Shown one piece after another: positions 7,653-17,773 of a DNA stretch of 56,146 bases (the first letter of the stretch is position 1; each line of letters opens with the position of its first letter). Below the pieces are notes generated by a model. The model did not search any database. It worked only from the letters and a program-made list of their open reading frames with translations, and had not been told where the DNA came from. This DNA comes from Bacteroidota bacterium (GTDB taxonomy: Bacteria; Bacteroidota; Bacteroidia; AKYH767-A; OLB10): positions 1 to 56,146 of the forward strand of contig JAHEMF010000014.1 of assembly GCA_024643795.1 (NCBI GenBank), given 5' to 3'. A program made the position numbers and the translations under genes.

Positions 7653-9380
7653 TCATGCGATCCCATTTAAAATTACTTTTTCTTTCAACTGATCAGGGCT
7701 GTATGGTTTCATCATGTAATCATCCATACCCGAATCATAACACTGCTGTATTTCTTCTTTTGTGACATTTGCTGTCATAGCACAAACACGTACTTTTTTC
7801 ATATTACCTGTGAGCTGGCTTCTGATCTGTTGTGTAGTTTCATAGCCGTTCATACCTGGCATTTGAATATCCATAAAAACAAAACTATAATCGGCAGCTT
7901 TTAGTTTTTCAATAGCCTCTTCTCCTGATTCTGCAACATCCACCTTTAAGCCCGGAAACAGGTCCTGCAAAGTATCAACTGCCACCATCTGATTGAACTC
8001 ATTATCCTCCACCAGCAACACTTTTAAAGCTGCAAGTTTTTCAACATCAATAGTTATTCCATCAAAAGTATTTAACGGAGCTTCACCTTTATTAATTTTA
8101 ATATCAAAATAAAAATCCGATCCTTTTCCAAATTCACTTGCCAGCTTTAACTGTCCGCCATGCAACTCTACTAACTGCCTGGAAATAGTAAGTCCTAGTC
8201 CGGTGCCACCATATTTACGTGTGGTATCCTTGGATGCCTGCCCAAAACTTTCAAAAACTTTTTCGAGCCGGTCCTTTGGAATACCAATACCTGTGTCTTT
8301 AACTGAAAATCTAAAGGTGCCGTCATTGTTAGGCTTTACGCTGATGGTTACACCGCCTTTCTCGGTGAATTTGATGGCGTTACCTGTAAGGTTCATAACA
8401 ACCTGTGTAAGCCTGGTTTCATCACCTATCATATATTGTGGTAATTCCGGAGCTATCTCAAGGTTCATCCGTATTCCTTTTTCATCGGCCTTCAAGCCCA
8501 AAATTGTTTGCACATTCTGCAGTGCCGAATGAACATCGAAGTTGGTTTCTTCCAACTCCATCTTGCCGGCCTCTATCTTAGCGAGATCAAGAATGTCATT
8601 GATGATAACAAGCAAATTAGATCCACTTTTCTGAATCACTCCAAGATATTTTTCCTGAAGCTCATTAAGTTGCGATTTAAGTAGCAGGTTAGTCAACCCC
8701 ACAATGGCATTCATTGGAGTTCGGATCTCATGACTCATATTGGCAAGAAATTGCTGCCTGAACTTTTCTGTTTCTATGAGCTGATCCCTGGTCATAACCA
8801 ACTCTTTGTTGGTACTTGTAAGATGGTCAAGTGCATCATTCAACTCGCGAGTTCTCTCTTCTACCTGACGCTCAAGTTCAGCCTCTCGTTTTCTGGACTC
8901 TTCCAACGCACGTTCATTTGATTGCTTTAACCGATCAAGGTTCAGCTTGAACAAATTGAGGATCAGTTGTGGATTTTTCTGTGACAGTGTTATAAAATCA
9001 GATTTCTGTACAGAACAAATAAGTATATCTGTGGAAGCCTTTAAAGTTGCGGTGGCGGTAGTATCTGCAAGAATACTTTCTCCTAAAACAGCAGGCTGAT
9101 CAATATTTGCCAGCAAAACATTTTCATTATATACACCTATTGTGCCCTGACACAGTAATATCAGGCTATCAGGTTTGGAGCCTTTCTCAACCAAAATGGC
9201 ACCAGGTTTAAAATTGGTGAGCGTAGAAACCTTCAAAACATCCTCCACGGCATCTGAGCTAACCCCCTGAAAAAGAGGGTTATGTGCAACAAGTTCTAGT
9301 CCCGGTTCGGTGATCGACATCGTTCTAAATGGGTTATTATTAGCTAAGGGCTTCCACAAAAAGCAGGTTAAAATATGCAT
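7653..9380 (-). CDS. Cytoplasmic hybrid histidine kinase: cNMP-binding-type domain, HisKA, HATPase, receiver
   Basis: 575 residues without membrane segments. Order (numbered from the outermost ATG): Crp-like cyclic-nucleotide-binding fold about 35-140 (GESILADTTATATL), coiled coil with VEERTRELN about 150-205, HisKA with phospho-acceptor H217 in NMSHEIRTPMN, HATPase with N-box NLTGNAIKF and G-boxes DTGIGIP and GGTGLGL, then a receiver with phospho-acceptor D504 (FMDIQMPGMNG). The outer ATG shares its A with the recX stop (TAATG). An internal ATG at 9320 (MSITEPG) begins the conserved part and may be the true start. No DNA-binding output is present, so it probably passes phosphate on or acts through protein contacts. 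Confidence 0.88.
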   Translation of the reverse strand: MHILTCFLWKPLANNNPFRTMSITEPGLELVAHNPLFQGVSSDAVEDVLKVSTLTNFKPGAILVEKGSKPDSLILLCQGTIGVYNENVLLANIDQPAVLGESILADTTATATLKASTDILICSVQKSDFITLSQKNPQLILNLFKLNLDRLKQSNERALEESRKREAELERQVEERTRELNDALDHLTSTNKELVMTRDQLIETEKFRQQFLANMSHEIRTPMNAIVGLTNLLLKSQLNELQEKYLGVIQKSGSNLLVIINDILDLAKIEAGKMELEETNFDVHSALQNVQTILGLKADEKGIRMNLEIAPELPQYMIGDETRLTQVVMNLTGNAIKFTEKGGVTISVKPNNDGTFRFSVKDTGIGIPKDRLEKVFESFGQASKDTTRKYGGTGLGLTISRQLVELHGGQLKLASEFGKGSDFYFDIKINKGEAPLNTFDGITIDVEKLAALKVLLVEDNEFNQMVAVDTLQDLFPGLKVDVAESGEEAIEKLKAADYSFVFMDIQMPGMNGYETTQQIRSQLTGNMKKVRVCAMTANVTKEEIQQCYDSGMDDYMMKPYSPDQLKEKVILNGIA

Positions 9381-10052: not shown

Positions 10053-10901
10053 ATGAGAAAAGTATTCGGGCCAGCCTTATTTGTTTTGGCCATTTTCATT
10101 GCTCTATCAGCATGTAATAACCAGGCCACAAATGATGATGGCGACAATAATATGGAAACCATGGTGGAAGATACCACCCCAATTAATGAATTGGCTGACT
10201 TCAGATTTTCTTATACCATTGCGAACTTACCTTCACCTTTTCAGGTACTTGATGAATTTGCAAGATCAGGCCTGCCAATCAACACTTCACTTCTGAATCC
10301 ATCATCGAATGCAGAAAATTATCATAGCCTGAATAAACTAGCATTCAACTATGGAGTTTATGGAGTTGACCTTGGCTATGCAGTAGTTAATGAGCGTACA
10401 CCCGAGATCCTAATGTATTATCCAACAGTAAGAGATATCTCTCAACAACTTGACATAGGAGAATCATTTGACAAGTTTGCAATTCGTTTTGAAGAGAACA
10501 ATGAGAATCGTGATTCTCTTGCAAAGATCCTTGACGAAGCATATGCCGCAACCGATGATTACCTGCGCAACAATCAGCGATTGAAAGTTGCCAGTTTGAT
10601 CTTAGCCGGCAGCTGGCTTGAATGTCAGCATATCTGTGTAAATCTGCTTAAAGGAGTTGAAAGAAATGCCTCAAATGAGATCCTGTATCAGCGTGTATAC
10701 GAACAACGCTTACATCTTGAAAATGTGATCAACATACTTACTGAATTTAAGGACGACGCAGAGATTGCAGCAGTAATAAGCGAAATGTCGACGTTGCTTG
10801 AGCATTACAAAAAGGCCACTGACCCTTCAGAGATCAATAAGGAATTTCTTAACGGACTTTCAACTGGTATCTCAAATGTAAGGGGCAAGGTTATTGGCTG
10901 A
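10053..10901 (+). CDS. Lipoprotein of unknown function
   Basis: About 282 residues beginning MRKVFG, with a hydrophobic signal and lipobox LSAC. An outer in-frame ATG at 9981 would put 24 extra residues in front of the signal, so I prefer 10053. After an Asn/Asp-rich linker the protein is mostly helical, with LNKLAFNYGVYGVDLGYA and a long C-terminal helical region. I do not recognise a named domain. It precedes the ABCG-type transporter by 65 bases on the same strand, which makes a periplasmic partner of that transporter possible; this is inference from position only. Confidence 0.75.
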   Translation: MRKVFGPALFVLAIFIALSACNNQATNDDGDNNMETMVEDTTPINELADFRFSYTIANLPSPFQVLDEFARSGLPINTSLLNPSSNAENYHSLNKLAFNYGVYGVDLGYAVVNERTPEILMYYPTVRDISQQLDIGESFDKFAIRFEENNENRDSLAKILDEAYAATDDYLRNNQRLKVASLILAGSWLECQHICVNLLKGVERNASNEILYQRVYEQRLHLENVINILTEFKDDAEIAAVISEMSTLLEHYKKATDPSEINKEFLNGLSTGISNVRGKVIG

Positions 10902-10966: not shown

Positions 10967-13900
10967 ATGAGTGATAAGATACTTAAGGCCTTGATGCAGC
11001 TTTTCGCCATCATTGCCAACAGCGAAAGACTCACCGGTCATGGACGTTCCATTGTTGAACTGTTTTTAAAACAGCAACTAAGCCAGTCCAGCGTCCCCCG
11101 CTACCTTCAGTTTTTTGATGAATACCTTGAAGTCCTTAGAGGGCGCGATAAAACAGGAAGGGAAAAAAAGCGCGTATCTGTAAACTCGGTTAAGGTGCTG
11201 CGCATCTGCACCGATATAAATCATGAACTTAACCAGCAACAAAAGTATGTGGTGCTTATCCGCCTGCTTGAATTTGCATACAGCTCTTCTGAAGATATTA
11301 CTGAGCAGGAACTTGAGTTTCTTTCCACTGTTGCAGAAGTTTTCAATATCAGCAAAGATGATTATGATTCGTGCCTGATACTTGTCTCATCAAAGAGCCC
11401 TGGAACAGTAGCTGATTCGCAACATTTTATATCATTATCCTCAACCGAACCCGCCTCTTCCGGACTGACAAAACACATTGTTAACAAAGGGTTTCAGGGC
11501 ACTGCCATATTCCTGTATTTCGAATCTACCGGTATATTGTTCATGAGATATTTCGGTGACGATACAGTAAAATGTAACGGACAGGGTTGTATTCCCGGAC
11601 AAGTATATGTAATAAGTCCCGGCACAGTGATCAGGGGCACGCGATCCAATCCGGTTTATTATAATGATATCATCAGAAGTTTTTTGAAAGACCAACTCCC
11701 TGAACCTATTTTATTCACTGCCGAATCTTTGGAATATGAATTCCGAAACGGTAAAAAAGGATTGCATGATTTTTCTTTTGAAGCTACTTCCGGAGAGATG
11801 ATCGGAATAATGGGAGGTTCGGGAGCAGGTAAATCTACTTTACTCAATCTTCTGAACGGAAACTATACTCCAAGTGCTGGTAAGGTAAAGGTTAACGGCA
11901 TAAGCATACACGATGAAGGAACGTTACTGGAAGGTGTTGTAGGGTATGTTCCTCAGGATGATCTGCTCATTGACGATCTTACAGTATATCAAAACCTGTT
12001 TTATAACAGCAAACTGTGCTTTGGCGATCTTGACAACAGCTCAATCGACAAACTGGTAGGTGAAACATTGGTTTCGCTCGGCCTATGGGAAATAAGAGAT
12101 CTCAAGGTTGGGAATGTTTTCAATAAAACTATCAGCGGAGGACAAAGGAAGCGGCTGAACATTGCCCTGGAATTGGTGCGCAAGCCTGCTGTACTTTTTG
12201 TGGATGAACCCACTTCCGGACTCTCATCCATGGACTCTGAAAATGTGATGGACCTGCTGAAAGAATTGTCGGTTAGCGGTAAACTTATTTTCGTGGTGAT
12301 ACATCAGCCGTCGTCTGACATTTTTAAACTCTTCGACCAACTTATCATTCTTGATCTTGGTGGTTATCCGGTATATTTTGGTAATCCTACCGACTCACTT
12401 TCATATTTTAAATCTTATTCCGGTCATGCCGATGCGGAGATCAATGAATGCATTGAGTGTGGAAATATAAATCCAGATCTGGTTTTTAACATCCTCGAAT
12501 CAAAAGTTCTGGATGAGTATGGAAACATCACACAAAACCGTAAAATAACTCCCAAGGAATGGTATGAGCATTATGTAAAAACGAAAGTCAGCAATGATTT
12601 TGATTCAAAGCAACATAACCGTCCTGATGTTAATTACAACAAACCTTCGCGCCTGCGTCAATTGCAGGTGTTTTTCACCCGTGATGTATTATCGAAGCTG
12701 AAGAACACCCAGTATATGCTCATCAATTTCCTGGAAGCACCACTACTGGCATTTATATTGGCTTATTTTCTCCGCTATTTTGATCCATCAGGTGAATACA
12801 TTTATAGTGAGAACATGAATATGCCTGCTTACCTGTTCATGTGTGTTATTGTAGCACTTTTTATGGGACTAACGGTAAGCGCTGAAGAGATCATCAGAGA
12901 CCGGAAGATCCAGGCTAGGGAATCCTTTCTCAACCTGAGCCGATCAAGCTATCTCTTTTCCAAAGTAGCCATACTGTTTATGCTTTCTGCCATCCAGACA
13001 TTATCGTTTGTTTTGATCGGAAATGCCATTCTAGGAATCCACGGCATGAACCAATATTACTTTCTTATTTTATTTTCCGTTTCATGTTTTTCAAATATGC
13101 TGGGGCTCAACATCTCATCCGCATTCAATTCTGCTGTCACCATTTACATACTTATACCATTCCTGATAATACCTCAGATCATTCTTAGCGGAGTAATTGT
13201 AAGTTTCGATAAACTGAATCCGAATGTAACATCTCAGGAGCATGTACCACTTATTGGAGAGGTGATGGCCTCCCGATGGGCTTTTGAAGCACTTGCGGTT
13301 CAACAATTCACCGGTAACCGTTACGAGCGCAACTTTTTCATGAACGACAAAAGAATGAATGAAGCGTTGTTCAAAAAGGACTTCTGGGCCGTTCACATGT
13401 CTGACCTGCTCGACTCTATTAAAACTTATGAGGCATCAGGATCCGGCGCACGTTCACTACTGTTCATCAATGAATTCACCAAAGAAAAAGCTTCCGGAAT
13501 GCCGCTGAAGCTGGATGTTGATGCACAAAATATTTTAACTCAAAGACCTACCAATTGGCACACTCAGTTGAAAAGTGAAATAGAAAATATAAGGCAATAT
13601 TATATAGGCGAATACAAAACCGCAAGACAAAAAAAGGATGACATAGTAGTTGCACTTGAAAAACAAATTGGCGCCAAGGGCCTTACCATGCTCAAAAAAC
13701 AAAACGCCAATGAGAGTCTCACAGAGTTAGTAAATAATTCCGGCGACTTCAATTACATGATCACTTACAATGATGAATACTACCGGAGATTCAGACCTAT
13801 TTATATGAATGGCTCTTCAAATGGCTTTTTACGTGCGCCATTTTATGTGAGCCGGAAAAATGTGTTTGGGAATTTTTACAATACCTATTGGGTTAACATG

Positions 13901-14026
13901 GGAGTGATCTGGATGATGTCTCTGATGCTTTTTCTGACGCTCTATTTTGACCTACTTAAAAAGGGCATCCACGGCCTTGAACGTGTTTCCGAAAAGATCC
14001 CGGCACTTAAAGTAAAAAGGCGGTGA
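10967..14026 (+). CDS. ABCG-type ATP-binding/permease protein with N-terminal TerB-like helical domain and large extracytoplasmic insert
   Basis: 1019 residues in one chain. Residues about 1-145 form a helical region resembling TerB; 150-240 look beta-rich. The ATPase follows: Walker A GGSGAGKST near 283, signature ISGGQRKR near 388, Walker B VLFVDEPTSGLSS near 408, and an H-loop HQPSSD. A permease of ABC2 type runs from about 583 to 780. A hydrophilic stretch of about 190 residues with charged helices follows, and a last membrane helix lies near 975-1000. Nucleotide domain before membrane domain is the ABCG/White order. The substrate is unknown. Its end is 3 bases from the convergent siaC-like gene, inside the signalling block. 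Confidence 0.88.
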   Translation: MSDKILKALMQLFAIIANSERLTGHGRSIVELFLKQQLSQSSVPRYLQFFDEYLEVLRGRDKTGREKKRVSVNSVKVLRICTDINHELNQQQKYVVLIRLLEFAYSSSEDITEQELEFLSTVAEVFNISKDDYDSCLILVSSKSPGTVADSQHFISLSSTEPASSGLTKHIVNKGFQGTAIFLYFESTGILFMRYFGDDTVKCNGQGCIPGQVYVISPGTVIRGTRSNPVYYNDIIRSFLKDQLPEPILFTAESLEYEFRNGKKGLHDFSFEATSGEMIGIMGGSGAGKSTLLNLLNGNYTPSAGKVKVNGISIHDEGTLLEGVVGYVPQDDLLIDDLTVYQNLFYNSKLCFGDLDNSSIDKLVGETLVSLGLWEIRDLKVGNVFNKTISGGQRKRLNIALELVRKPAVLFVDEPTSGLSSMDSENVMDLLKELSVSGKLIFVVIHQPSSDIFKLFDQLIILDLGGYPVYFGNPTDSLSYFKSYSGHADAEINECIECGNINPDLVFNILESKVLDEYGNITQNRKITPKEWYEHYVKTKVSNDFDSKQHNRPDVNYNKPSRLRQLQVFFTRDVLSKLKNTQYMLINFLEAPLLAFILAYFLRYFDPSGEYIYSENMNMPAYLFMCVIVALFMGLTVSAEEIIRDRKIQARESFLNLSRSSYLFSKVAILFMLSAIQTLSFVLIGNAILGIHGMNQYYFLILFSVSCFSNMLGLNISSAFNSAVTIYILIPFLIIPQIILSGVIVSFDKLNPNVTSQEHVPLIGEVMASRWAFEALAVQQFTGNRYERNFFMNDKRMNEALFKKDFWAVHMSDLLDSIKTYEASGSGARSLLFINEFTKEKASGMPLKLDVDAQNILTQRPTNWHTQLKSEIENIRQYYIGEYKTARQKKDDIVVALEKQIGAKGLTMLKKQNANESLTELVNNSGDFNYMITYNDEYYRRFRPIYMNGSSNGFLRAPFYVSRKNVFGNFYNTYWVNMGVIWMMSLMLFLTLYFDLLKKGIHGLERVSEKIPALKVKRR

Positions 14027-14029
14027 TTG

Positions 14030-14410
14030 TTAGTTTACAGCAGCTATCTCAAATTTAAGATCAACTATGGTCTGATAGTCATCGCCGGCTTCCATCATAT
14101 CTTCATCATCTTCTTCATACAACCACTTTACCACAACTTTTGATTTACCCGTTTGCTGCAGCGTTTCGAGTCGTCGTAATATATCCAGGATTATTTTGGA
14201 AGAGCTGGTGTTGAAATATTCAAGCTGAAAAGTCATTTCGGTTTCAGCAAGTGCTTTGTTTTGATAATTATCAAGCCATTCAAATACCGGCTTATAAAAT
14301 TCAACTGCATTCTCAGGGATGGAGCGGCCCCATAACTTTAACTTTCCGGCATCAGCATCAAATTCTATTCCGGGGGTCTTGCTGTCTGGTTCGAGCTTAA
14401 GGGTATTCAT
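14030..14410 (-). CDS. SiaC family (DUF1987) regulatory phosphoprotein
   Basis: A 126-residue protein of the DUF1987/SiaC family. It has the N-terminal strand PGIEFDADAGKLKLWGRSIPEN split by short loops, EFYKPVFEWLDNY, and the central FQLEYFNTSSSK motif. Thr 68 in FNTSSSK falls at the same number as the Thr phosphorylated by SiaB in the Pseudomonas aeruginosa SiaC system. In that system the unphosphorylated form activates a diguanylate cyclase; none is in this window. It lies 10 bases downstream of the SiaB-like gene, and the pair should share one promoter. Confidence 0.88.
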   Translation of the reverse strand: MNTLKLEPDSKTPGIEFDADAGKLKLWGRSIPENAVEFYKPVFEWLDNYQNKALAETEMTFQLEYFNTSSSKIILDILRRLETLQQTGKSKVVVKWLYEEDDEDMMEAGDDYQTIVDLKFEIAAVN

Positions 14411-14420
14411 AGATCAGATT

Positions 14421-14975
14421 TTATAATATTACTGAAAGAGTAAAGAACGCATAATGTTCATTTACCGGGGTGAATGTACAATTTAACTTGCTTCCCGATT
14501 TACGGGCAATCTCTATAAGTCCGAGTCCTGCACCACCCTTATCAGACAAGGTGGTAGTGCTCAAGCTTTCAAGATAAAATGCCTTTAATGATTCTTCATC
14601 CATATCATTGATCCGGCTGATACGTTCTTTGAGCAGATCAACATTTTCAAGCAACATAAAGTTTCCGGCATCCAGTTCAATGGCTTTATCCGACTTGAAA
14701 ACTGTTTTAAGGATCCCTTCCGATCGCATTTCATCTGCACCAGAATTGTTATGATGATGAAATATATTCTGTAGCACTTCTGTTAATACAGTAAAGTATT
14801 TCTTTCGCTTTCGCGGATCAGCAACACCATTTTCAAAAACCGGTTCAATTGTATGATGGATATCCTGTATTACCTCTTGAGTGACCTTTCCCTTAAACAA
14901 TAGGATATCTCCGGATCCTGAAAACTGAATGCCATCTGACTTCTCATTATTAAATAAAGCTAAAAGATCCTTCAT
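14421..14975 (-). CDS. SiaB family protein kinase
   Basis: A 184-residue GHKL-fold protein. The N-box-like helix TEVLQNIFHHHNN and the glycine-rich ATP lid DKGGAGLGLIEIARKSG are both visible, as in SiaB-type Ser/Thr kinases that act on SiaC. There is no His-phosphotransfer domain and no membrane segment, so it is an anti-sigma-like kinase, not a sensor histidine kinase. It is transcribed away from the receiver/PP2C gene, which would be its opposing phosphatase. An exact promoter match sits just upstream. Confidence 0.87.
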   Translation of the reverse strand: MKDLLALFNNEKSDGIQFSGSGDILLFKGKVTQEVIQDIHHTIEPVFENGVADPRKRKKYFTVLTEVLQNIFHHHNNSGADEMRSEGILKTVFKSDKAIELDAGNFMLLENVDLLKERISRINDMDEESLKAFYLESLSTTTLSDKGGAGLGLIEIARKSGSKLNCTFTPVNEHYAFFTLSVIL

Positions 14976-15064: not shown

Positions 15065-15097
15065 TTGCAGAGTGTATAAGAGTATTTCATATATTTG
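15065..15097 (+). promoter_or_regulatory. Promoter for receiver/PP2C gene
   Basis: TTG at 15065-15067, 22 bases, then TATATTTG at 15090-15097. The box ends 6 bases before the ATG at 15104, so the leader would be nearly absent. It points away from the siaBC promoter about 65 bases to the left. Confidence 0.5.
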
Positions 15098-15103
15098 TTA
15101 AGT

Positions 15104-16414
15104 ATGGAAGTGGTAACTGAAATAGCAACGAAAAAGGTTCTGGTGGTGGACGATGAGCCGGATATGGGCCCATTGATCACCGGAATGTTCAGGCTCAAGG
15201 TAAAGCGGGGTGAGCTTACTTTCGTGCATGCCGAGAACGGTGCTGCCGCCCTTCAAAAACTGGAAGAACAATCTGATATTGACCTTATCCTTACTGACAT
15301 AAATATGCCAGTGATGGATGGTCTCACTTTCTTAAATCAGATAAAAGATAAGGGGCTAAATCAAAAGGCAATCGTAATCTCTGCATATAACGACCTCAAG
15401 AATATCCGCACGGCTATGAATCGCGGCGCCTTTGATTTCATAACCAAGCCTATTGATCCGGAAGACCTTAAAGCTACTATCGATAAAGGCATAAACGAAA
15501 TGATGCTTGTTGAAGAACGGATCAGGATAAAAAAGGAACTGGAAGAAGAAAGAGACGCAAAAGAAAAGTTTCTGCTTGATCAGAAAGAACGGCTGGAAAT
15601 TCAAGTCACTGAAAGAACCGCAACCATTCACAACCAAAAAACTTTGCTCGAAGTACGGAACAAAGAAATTCTTGATTCCATTCATTATGCCAAGCGGCTT
15701 CAGGAAGCGATACTCCCTCCGCTATCAGCATTTCATGCCATTGTTCCCGAAGGGTTTGTTTTGTATCAATCCAAGGATATTGTTTCAGGCGATTTTTACT
15801 GGTTTGGCGAAAGCGATACCAAAAAAATTGTGGTTGCTGCCGATTGTACCGGCCATGGAGTTGCAGGAGCGCTCATGAGTATGATGGGAGTTTCGCTGCT
15901 CAACCAGATCATCGGTGCCGAAAAGATCGACACCCCTTCCAAAGTTCTCGATATGCTGGACGCAGCTCTGGCCAAGTCTATGAGGAAGTCGGGGGGCAAT
16001 TCCCATATAGGGATGGATGTGGCCATTCTGGCATTCAACAAAGACCTGTCGGCAGTAGAATATGCCGGCGCCAACCGCCCCCTATGGATCATCCGGGATG
16101 GCGAACTCATCACAATTGGGCCTGACAAATCCCCTATTGGCGGGCTTAGTGAGCGAAAACAGTCGGAATTCACAAATCAGCATGTCAATATTTCAAAAGG
16201 GGATGCGTTGTATATCTTTACCGACGGCTTTGCCGACCAGTTTGGCGGACCGGATGGAAAAAAACTGATGCGTAAGAATTTTAAAGATCATCTGATAAAC
16301 AACCGCCAACTCACTATGAAAGAGCAAGGTAACTCCCTTCATGAGTACTTTGAAAATTGGCGTGGTTCACTTGAACAGGTAGATGACATTTTAGTAATAG
16401 GTATTAAGATCTGA
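15104..16414 (+). CDS. Response regulator with SpoIIE/PP2C phosphatase output (SiaA-like role)
   Basis: 436 residues from ATG 15104; an in-frame TTG at 15095 is unlikely. A receiver (about 10-130) has VVDDEPD, phospho-acceptor D65 in LTDINMPVMDG, and the conserved Lys in ITKPID. A coiled coil (about 135-200) contains VTERTATI and SIHYAKRLQEAILP. The SpoIIE phosphatase domain has the metal motif ADCTGHGVAGALM, FTDGFADQ, and a terminal DDILVIGI. The family removes phosphate from Ser/Thr of partner-switch proteins, so the neighbouring SiaC-like protein is the likely substrate. The P. aeruginosa SiaA is a membrane protein; here a receiver replaces the membrane sensor. Confidence 0.9.
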   Translation: MEVVTEIATKKVLVVDDEPDMGPLITGMFRLKVKRGELTFVHAENGAAALQKLEEQSDIDLILTDINMPVMDGLTFLNQIKDKGLNQKAIVISAYNDLKNIRTAMNRGAFDFITKPIDPEDLKATIDKGINEMMLVEERIRIKKELEEERDAKEKFLLDQKERLEIQVTERTATIHNQKTLLEVRNKEILDSIHYAKRLQEAILPPLSAFHAIVPEGFVLYQSKDIVSGDFYWFGESDTKKIVVAADCTGHGVAGALMSMMGVSLLNQIIGAEKIDTPSKVLDMLDAALAKSMRKSGGNSHIGMDVAILAFNKDLSAVEYAGANRPLWIIRDGELITIGPDKSPIGGLSERKQSEFTNQHVNISKGDALYIFTDGFADQFGGPDGKKLMRKNFKDHLINNRQLTMKEQGNSLHEYFENWRGSLEQVDDILVIGIKI

Positions 16415-16468: not shown

Positions 16469-17773
16469 ATGGGAAATAATATTACAACAGACCGTTGCAA
16501 AGACATCATTAAAAAAGTTGATGCATTTCAGCATTTGCCTGAAAATGTACTAAATGATATTGCCGAAAAGCTAAACGTAGTTCAATACTCCAAAAACTCC
16601 ACTATAATAAAGAAAGGCGATGCAGGTAATTGCATGTACCTTATCATTGAAGGTAAGGTGAAGATCCATGATGCCGAGACCGTGATTGCTGAAATGGGAG
16701 AAGGTAATTTCTTCGGAGAATTCTCATTGTTGGATGACGAACCAAGATCCATGTCAGTAACTGCCATTGTTGATTCATCACTTGGAAGTATTTCTCAAAA
16801 CGATTTTTATAATCTGCTCAACCAACACCCGCACACCACACGTGATATCATTAAAACATTGATAGGAAGATTGCGCCTTCAAAACAGCCGCATGATTGAC
16901 CAGATGCGTGAACGTGCAGAAAAACTGGAAGCACTGGTTCAGGAACGCACTACCGACCTGCAGCAAAAGAATAAGGAGCTGGAAGAAACACTGTCCGAAC
17001 TACAGAAAACTCAGGAACAGCTGGTGATGCAGGAAAAGCTGGCCACATTAGGTCAACTTACCGCGGGCATTGCACACGAGATCAAAAATCCTCTCAATTT
17101 CGTGAATAATTTTGCTGCCCTCTCCAATGACCTCATCGAAGAATTGCTGGAAGCAAAGGATGATGAAGAACGCGAAGAGGTTATACAAGCTTTAAAGGAC
17201 AACCTGGCGCGCATTTACCAGCATGGTAAACGTGCTGATAGTATTGTTGCAAGCATGATGATGCATGCACGGGAATCATCGGGCGAGAAAGCACCTACCG
17301 ATATCAATAACATGTTAAACGAAACCATGAATCTGGCTTATCATGGTATGCCTTCAGCCGGAACCAAAATTGGTATCGACTTTGTAAAAAACATGGAAAA
17401 GGATCTGCCCGAATTGAACGTGATACAGCAGGACATTAACCGCGTGTTCCTGAATATATTCACAAATGCTATTCACGCTGTACGCGAAAGAGCGATGTCA
17501 GGCGAGGACCCTGCATACAAACCACAAATCACTATTACTACTCATTCAGACAACAAGAATGTTACCATTTCAATAAAAGATAATGGCATAGGTATTCCTG
17601 ACCTGATTCGGCAAAAGATCTTCAACCCGTTTTTCACAACAAAACCTACAGGACAAGGTACAGGCCTGGGTTTAAGTATAAGCTTTGATATCATCAAAGC
17701 TCATGGCGGCAACCTGGTAGTGAATTCAAAAGAAAAAGAATTCACAAACTTTATTGTCACCTTGCCACGTTAA
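16469..17773 (+). CDS. Cytoplasmic histidine kinase with cNMP-binding-type sensor domain
   Basis: 434 residues, no membrane segment. The Crp-like sensor spans about 15-135 ([24 protein letters not shown]). A coiled coil with [12 protein letters not shown] leads to the kinase core: acceptor H203 in [17 protein letters not shown]-box [12 protein letters not shown], then DNGIGIPD and [10 protein letters not shown]. There is no receiver of its own. It starts 54 bases after the receiver/PP2C gene, so that receiver is the natural phosphate target. The usual PRSMSV-type ring suggests a ligand pocket, but whether it binds a cyclic nucleotide is unknown. Confidence 0.9.

Follow-up and report, generated by a model that had tools for sequence, protein, structure and literature searches.

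The transporter locus

The window, by which we mean the whole 56,146-nucleotide stretch of DNA analysed here, carries a gene for an ABCG-type half-transporter together with genes for a lipoprotein and for a SiaABC-type phosphoprotein switch. The features of this region are:

10053..10901, + strand: partner lipoprotein (LIP), about 282 residues; same operon as the transporter gene, family present at 87 of 120 transporter loci
10967..14026, + strand: TerB-FHA-ABCG half-transporter, 1019 residues (ATG start; open reading frame and profile matches)
10967..11392, + strand: TerB-like helical bundle, residues 1–142 (Pfam matches in relatives, AlphaFold 2 model, fold match)
11168..11194, + strand: motif K68-R-V-S-V-N-S74-V75-K76 at the start of TerB helix 4; tracks SiaC, predicted SiaC docking site
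11414..11701, + strand: FHA-like beta sandwich plus helix, residues 150–245 (AlphaFold 2 model, PDB fold matches)
11714..12421, + strand: ABC ATPase (NBD), residues 250–485 (Pfam, family conservation)
12449..12460, + strand: CxxC pair, C495 and C498, in the NBD–TMD linker, conserved in at least 90% of relatives
12713..13201, + strand: membrane helices TM1–TM5, about residues 583–745 (family-averaged hydropathy, ABC2_membrane)
13202..13882, + strand: enlarged EL3, a periplasmic helical domain, residues 746–972 (topology, AlphaFold 2 model)
13883..13954, + strand: TM6, residues 973–996 (family-averaged hydropathy)
14030..14410, − strand: SiaC phosphoprotein (PF09345, 139.5 bits versus 24.5; aligned to solved SiaC)
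14207–14209, − strand: T68 codon of SiaC
14421..14975, − strand: SiaB-family kinase (DUF6272; NF038262, 121.7 bits against a cut-off of 85)
15095..16414, + strand: response regulator–PP2C (SpoIIE) phosphatase, SiaA-like role (profile matches)
16469..17773, + strand: cNMP-binding histidine kinase (profile matches)

The LIP gene ends 65 bases upstream of the transporter gene on the same strand. The siaC and siaB genes are convergent to the transporter gene, and those for the response regulator–PP2C protein and the histidine kinase diverge from siaC/siaB. LIP has a conserved lipobox cysteine and is all-helical as judged from its sequence, with no credible Pfam or PDB family; an identity with the PG1828 lipoprotein (NF050142) was rejected, the match covering only the signal-peptide region and falling below the cut-off. 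A second cNMP-binding hybrid histidine kinase is encoded at 7653–9380, and two kinases of the cNMP type flank the transporter region. The initial annotation, which dealt with the transporter, made no link to the neighbouring SiaABC genes.

Domain organization of the transporter

That annotation described the protein as an ABCG-type transporter with added domains, and profile searches confirm this. Pfam ABC_tran matches residues 266–417 (E = 1e-31) and ABC2_membrane residues 564–776 (E = 3e-18), while the ABCG-type model TIGR00955 spans residues 260–788 (4.5e-75). The NBD lies N-terminal to the TMD, the order by which ABCG-type membership is recognized, and the signature motifs GGSGAGKST, SGGQRKR and DEPTSG are kept throughout the family. 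In single-sequence comparisons, the solved structures of ABCG1, ABCG2, ABCG5 and ABCG8 align over the NBD and those of ABCG1 and ABCG2 also over most of the TMD. The protein is a presumed exporter, and its family suggests an envelope lipid or glycoconjugate as a candidate substrate. The CxxC pair, a possible metal or redox site, lies just ahead of an ABCG-like 'GNxNP' segment.

About 245 residues precede the ATPase, close to the 240 that had been proposed to comprise a TerB-like bundle and a beta-rich part. An AlphaFold model of this head, built on an alignment of 82 heads (mean pLDDT 90), has seven helices in residues 3–141 and a beta sandwich at residues 154–223, followed by a helix. In a Foldseek search of the PDB, the helices retrieve the TerB-like protein PG1108 (2h5n; probability 1.0, TMt 0.60, E = 0.03), and Pfam TerB matches 73 of the 82 relatives at E ≤ 0.1 (best 2.2e-13); the window protein itself scores 17.7 bits, under the 24.4-bit cut-off. 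The sandwich, to which no name had been given, retrieves FHA domains as most of its best 50 PDB matches, mostly with probabilities of 0.9–1.0 but with E-values of only 0.01–0.2. The modelled head is thus TerB plus FHA-like, and the TerB-like bundle of the earlier description is borne out.

An FHA-like fold ahead of an ABCG core raises the possibility that control of the head lies in its FHA part, through binding of phosphothreonine as in mycobacterial Rv1747, and that the neighbouring SiaABC proteins act elsewhere. Transporters of this type are controlled by Ser/Thr phosphorylation proteins (PMC5549992, PMC3908365), and regulation through phosphothreonine partners has been described for FHA-ABCG transporters (PMC5549992). 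In the present family, however, FHA is absent among the Pfam matches listed for the 82 relatives, and the canonical G-R / S-x-x-H / N-G pattern is not visible in the head consensus; for both reasons phosphopeptide binding by the FHA-like part appears doubtful. The FHA part is also weakly conserved among orthologues (28% identical to the window protein, against a median of 53% for the TerB part), and the sequence changes that accompany loss of SiaC, discussed below, map more to TerB than to FHA. We regard regulation through the FHA part as quite unlikely.

Hydropathy averaged over 98 relatives places six membrane helices at about residues 583–603, 618–638, 666–689, 702–720, 722–745 and 973–996, leaving a gap of 226 residues between TM5 and TM6. 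The insert that was said to split the permease before its last helix is therefore real, and the prediction that it faces the periplasm agrees with the topology, since the NBD is cytoplasmic and the TM2–TM3 loop is rich in lysine and arginine. Because the TM5–TM6 segment opens with the ABCG-like 'SRWAFEALAVQQF', we interpret it as an enlarged EL3. The insert proper (residues 785–970) ranges from 176 to 236 residues across orthologues, with a median identity to the window protein of 25% (53% for the TerB part). Its AlphaFold 2 model (residues 776–972, pLDDT 94) shows a small beta part beside three long helices, one of them 50 residues in length, and the fold search yielded no PDB match (best probability 0.14). 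Sequence and fold searches together gave no credible family or PDB match; weak hits to mitochondrial Lon (E = 0.02) were unconfirmed by the fold search and were discarded. The model thus describes an ordered periplasmic domain without a known PDB fold.

Distribution of the family

The layout had also been called unusual. This holds for ABCG proteins in general, but within Bacteroidota it is normal: the TerB-FHA-ABCG arrangement is the standard form of an uncharacterised family of the phylum. In an even sample of 295 genomes from the class, 157 have a relative of the transporter (E ≤ 1e-60), far more than chance would give, which rules out a rare oddity. Nearly all of the matches listed from the class sample are full length (1000–1075 residues, 45–59% identity), and among 41 near relatives 18 have a match, which is long in 17. 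Named relatives include Crocinitomix, Brumimicrobium, Marinifilum and Catalimonadaceae; a search of viral contigs found none.

Two further groups were seen. Elsewhere in the phylum, family f110 (loci L182, L183, L187 and L188) comprises relatives of 1214–1323 residues, TerB-like by eye at the N-terminus and with a longer region before the NBD that possibly holds two FHA-like domains. Loci L193 and L194 (genomes G120 and G183) represent a divergent branch of 930–935 residues that matches profile positions 83–847 only; both genomes are small and encode SiaC several times, in some cases as tandem copies spaced by about 1 kb.

Association with the SiaABC switch

In Pseudomonas aeruginosa, SiaC is phosphorylated at T68 by SiaB and dephosphorylated by SiaA, and phosphorylated SiaC no longer binds the diguanylate cyclase SiaD (PMC7647112, PMC8457831). 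The region of Y65, N67, T68 and S69 is both the SiaD-binding and the phosphorylation site (PMC8457831, PMC7647112). In an alignment of the window SiaC with the solved Pseudomonas protein (E = 4e-16), these four residues occupy the same positions, reading Y65-F-N67-T68-S69. An exact Y-x-N-T-S is found in 36 of 40 SiaC proteins encoded near a transporter, the other four reading Y-F-N-T-A-S (two), Y-F-N-I-S and Y-M-N-S-A (one each). The window SiaB falls below the equivalog cut-off (81.8 versus 225 bits). With the T68 site, a SiaB-family kinase and a PP2C/SpoIIE phosphatase all present, the switch in the window is intact as judged by comparison of sequences.

The genome to which the window belongs (99.8% complete) has a single SiaC and a single SiaB-family match, both next to the transporter gene, and no match to GGDEF; the SiaD output is absent. 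SiaC therefore cannot be serving a diguanylate cyclase here. Over the 295 genomes, SiaC and the transporter are found together in 154, the transporter alone in 3, SiaC alone in 18 and neither in 120 (Fisher P = 2e-58, phylogeny ignored). Counted by genus, the corresponding numbers are 71, 3, 5 and 77 (P = 4e-34, again ignoring phylogeny).

SiaC (DUF1987) proteins are widespread, and some genomes of the class carry up to 14 copies (for example G043 and G254). SiaC switches must therefore have further targets in Bacteroidota, and the multiple copies in many genomes presumably serve these.

The association extends to gene order. Neighbours at 120 transporter loci, a partly redundant set, include LIP at 87, a protein we call c2 at 63, SiaC at 39, SiaB at 30 and a PP2C phosphatase at 17. 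The c2 proteins form a conserved family of small, secreted, beta-rich proteins (for example L138:9527–9949) with no credible Pfam or PDB match; they are missing from loci of the window's order and present in most other lineages. Of 34 loci from SiaC-containing genomes, 13 have a siaC gene no more than 7 kb away, where chance would give 0.36 (P = 4e-18). Six loci have PP2C-siaB-siaC-ABC in one direction (L169, L172, and L202, L203, L206 and L204 from G054, G249, G194 and G065, respectively), usually followed by LIP and c2-like genes; the phosphatase in the L172 operon is of the HAMP-GAF-PAS-SpoIIE type. Six others (L091, L096, L119, L123, L210 and L211) have the order siaC-LIP-ABC.

A TerB motif that follows SiaC

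Eight genomes keep the transporter without SiaC (G005, G033, G035, G037, G038, G040, G294 and G144, three of them in the class sample), so that transport does not strictly require SiaC. In the six of these that belong to the window's order, substitutions affect conserved TerB sites at frequencies of 0.20–0.57, compared with 0.00–0.14 in SiaC-containing relatives (0.22 in one second copy); NBD and TMD sites show no such difference. The TerB positions lost most are S74, V75, K76, T121, E117 and F118, and the core residues L6, L9, L47, L88, K93, V96 and E102 are retained. V75, for example, is present in 53 of 59 copies from genomes with SiaC and in 0 of 8 from genomes without it.

The motif was picked post hoc from the six genomes and was therefore tested on other data, the independent evidence being G294, G144, the paralogues and gene adjacency. 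Both further SiaC-less genomes lack the motif. It is present at all 39 loci with an adjacent SiaC gene, and the 14 motif-less loci are without one (P = 0.002). Five SiaC-containing genomes have a motif-less copy (G270, G065, G054, G249 and G194), and each also has a motif-bearing paralogue; in the last four, the motif-bearing paralogue sits in the siaB-siaC operon and the motif-less paralogues lie outside it. By genome, at least one copy has the motif in 55 of 57 with SiaC and in 0 of 8 without, the exceptions being the divergent G087 and G214, where SiaC is present.

Comparison of sisters on the tree bears this out for about three losses within the window's order, whereas in the f9 and G144 lineages the SiaC-containing sister copies have likewise diverged in TerB. 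A Mann–Whitney test on TerB divergence that is blind to phylogeny (P = 4e-5) was not accepted alone; the sister comparisons agree with it within the window's order and fail to do so in these two deeper lineages. We also rejected a likeness between TerB and the SiaC-binding motif of SiaD ('KVARIS' versus 'KVLRIC' in TerB) as no better than chance, the best SiaD-motif score being reached in 71% of letter-shuffled and 43% of column-shuffled trials.

The initial annotation had guessed that the head is a docking site for signalling proteins. Co-occurrence, operons and the SiaC-tracking motif give this strong comparative support, with SiaC as the likely partner, and we predict that SiaC docks directly on TerB at the motif. 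A common regulon or stress condition could also link the two, with SiaC never touching TerB but acting by way of a third component such as LIP or a transcription factor. The convergent rather than co-directional siaC in the window and in many Bacteroidales fits such an arrangement, as does retention of the transporter in the eight SiaC-less genomes; but the motif follows SiaC both by genome and by paralogue, and siaC is directly upstream of the ABC gene in separate same-strand operons, which makes an indirect link unlikely. That the protein is an ordinary ABCG exporter with a purely structural N-terminal domain and no regulation would accord with its intact ABCG core, yet it is hard to account for the co-occurrence (P = 2e-58, phylogeny uncorrected) and for the motif tracking unless a functional link exists, and we give this explanation very little credence.

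Model for switching of the exporter

Our favoured reading, which we consider likely, is that the exporter with its TerB-FHA head is an output of the SiaA/B/C phosphoswitch and that SiaC gates transport through TerB. The transporter would be a homodimeric ABCG-type exporter in the inner membrane with the head in the cytoplasm. A signal would pass from the histidine kinase to the response regulator–PP2C protein, a possible connection suggested by adjacency. The phosphatase would dephosphorylate SiaC at the conserved T68 and the SiaB kinase would rephosphorylate it. Unphosphorylated SiaC would bind TerB around S74-V75-K76 and residues 117–121, as the comparative evidence suggests, and the SiaC-bound head would alter NBD activity and so switch transport, presumably by activation if SiaD is a guide. 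Substrate may exit by way of the ABCG TMD and be received by EL3 together with the operon lipoprotein and, often, c2. In this bacterium, a switch known from biofilm signalling in Pseudomonas thus probably controls whether an ABC exporter is active.

The authors of the SiaC–SiaD work proposed SiaC (DUF1987) proteins as general modulators of adjacent proteins (PMC8457831). The sole SiaC target that we found described in the open-licence literature is SiaD. Searches of that literature returned no ABC exporter as a SiaABC output with a TerB reader, and nothing relevant on TerB-ABC proteins, SiaC in Bacteroidetes or partner switching with ABC transporters. If our reading is true, membrane transporters are a second class of SiaC target, and the role of the switch in a genome without any GGDEF protein is accounted for. 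On this reading a TerB domain also gains a function, and mutagenesis can be aimed at a nine-residue site. The analysis further delimits an uncharacterised family of exporters that roughly half of the sampled class genomes carry and whose periplasmic domain lacks a PDB fold match.

More tentatively, and with rather less confidence than in the model itself, we suggest that SiaABC may serve bacteria generally as a switch and that in Bacteroidota it may act chiefly by gating an ABC exporter directly, with TerB as the reader domain. Signals carried by phosphothreonine would in that case reach envelope export with no second messenger in between, and the periplasmic stalk domain and the lipoprotein would together form a new trans-envelope export route.

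Comparison with known systems

The ABCG core, regulatory FHA-ABCG transporters such as Rv1747, and SiaABC are all already known. Eukaryotic ABCG1/2/5/8 share with the transporter an NBD ahead of the TMD and six membrane helices, and are homologous to it across the NBD and TM1–TM5. They have no TerB-FHA head and a much shorter TM5–TM6 loop (226 residues in the transporter), and these half-transporters comprise 600–680 residues compared with about 1000 here. PG1108 has the helical fold of the head in common but is stand-alone, whereas the TerB-like part here is fused to a transporter.

Rv1747-type transporters of Mycobacterium likewise place a regulatory FHA domain ahead of the ABCG core (PMC5549992, PMC3908365). 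In the present family, unlike these, TerB precedes a divergent FHA-like domain, and the large periplasmic EL3 and the lipoprotein partner set it further apart. The linked kinase is of the SiaB family, whereas Rv1747 has the Ser/Thr kinase PknF.

With the SiaABCD system of P. aeruginosa (PMC7647112, PMC8457831) the locus shares SiaB- and SiaC-family proteins, a PP2C phosphatase and the T68 site. Among the differences, the phosphatase of the window is a response regulator that lacks HAMP and PAS parts. In Pseudomonas the diguanylate cyclase gene siaD follows siaABC (PMC7647112); the place directly after siaC that siaD holds there is taken by the ABC gene in several Bacteroidota genomes. The output would accordingly differ, being an ABC exporter here and a diguanylate cyclase in Pseudomonas.
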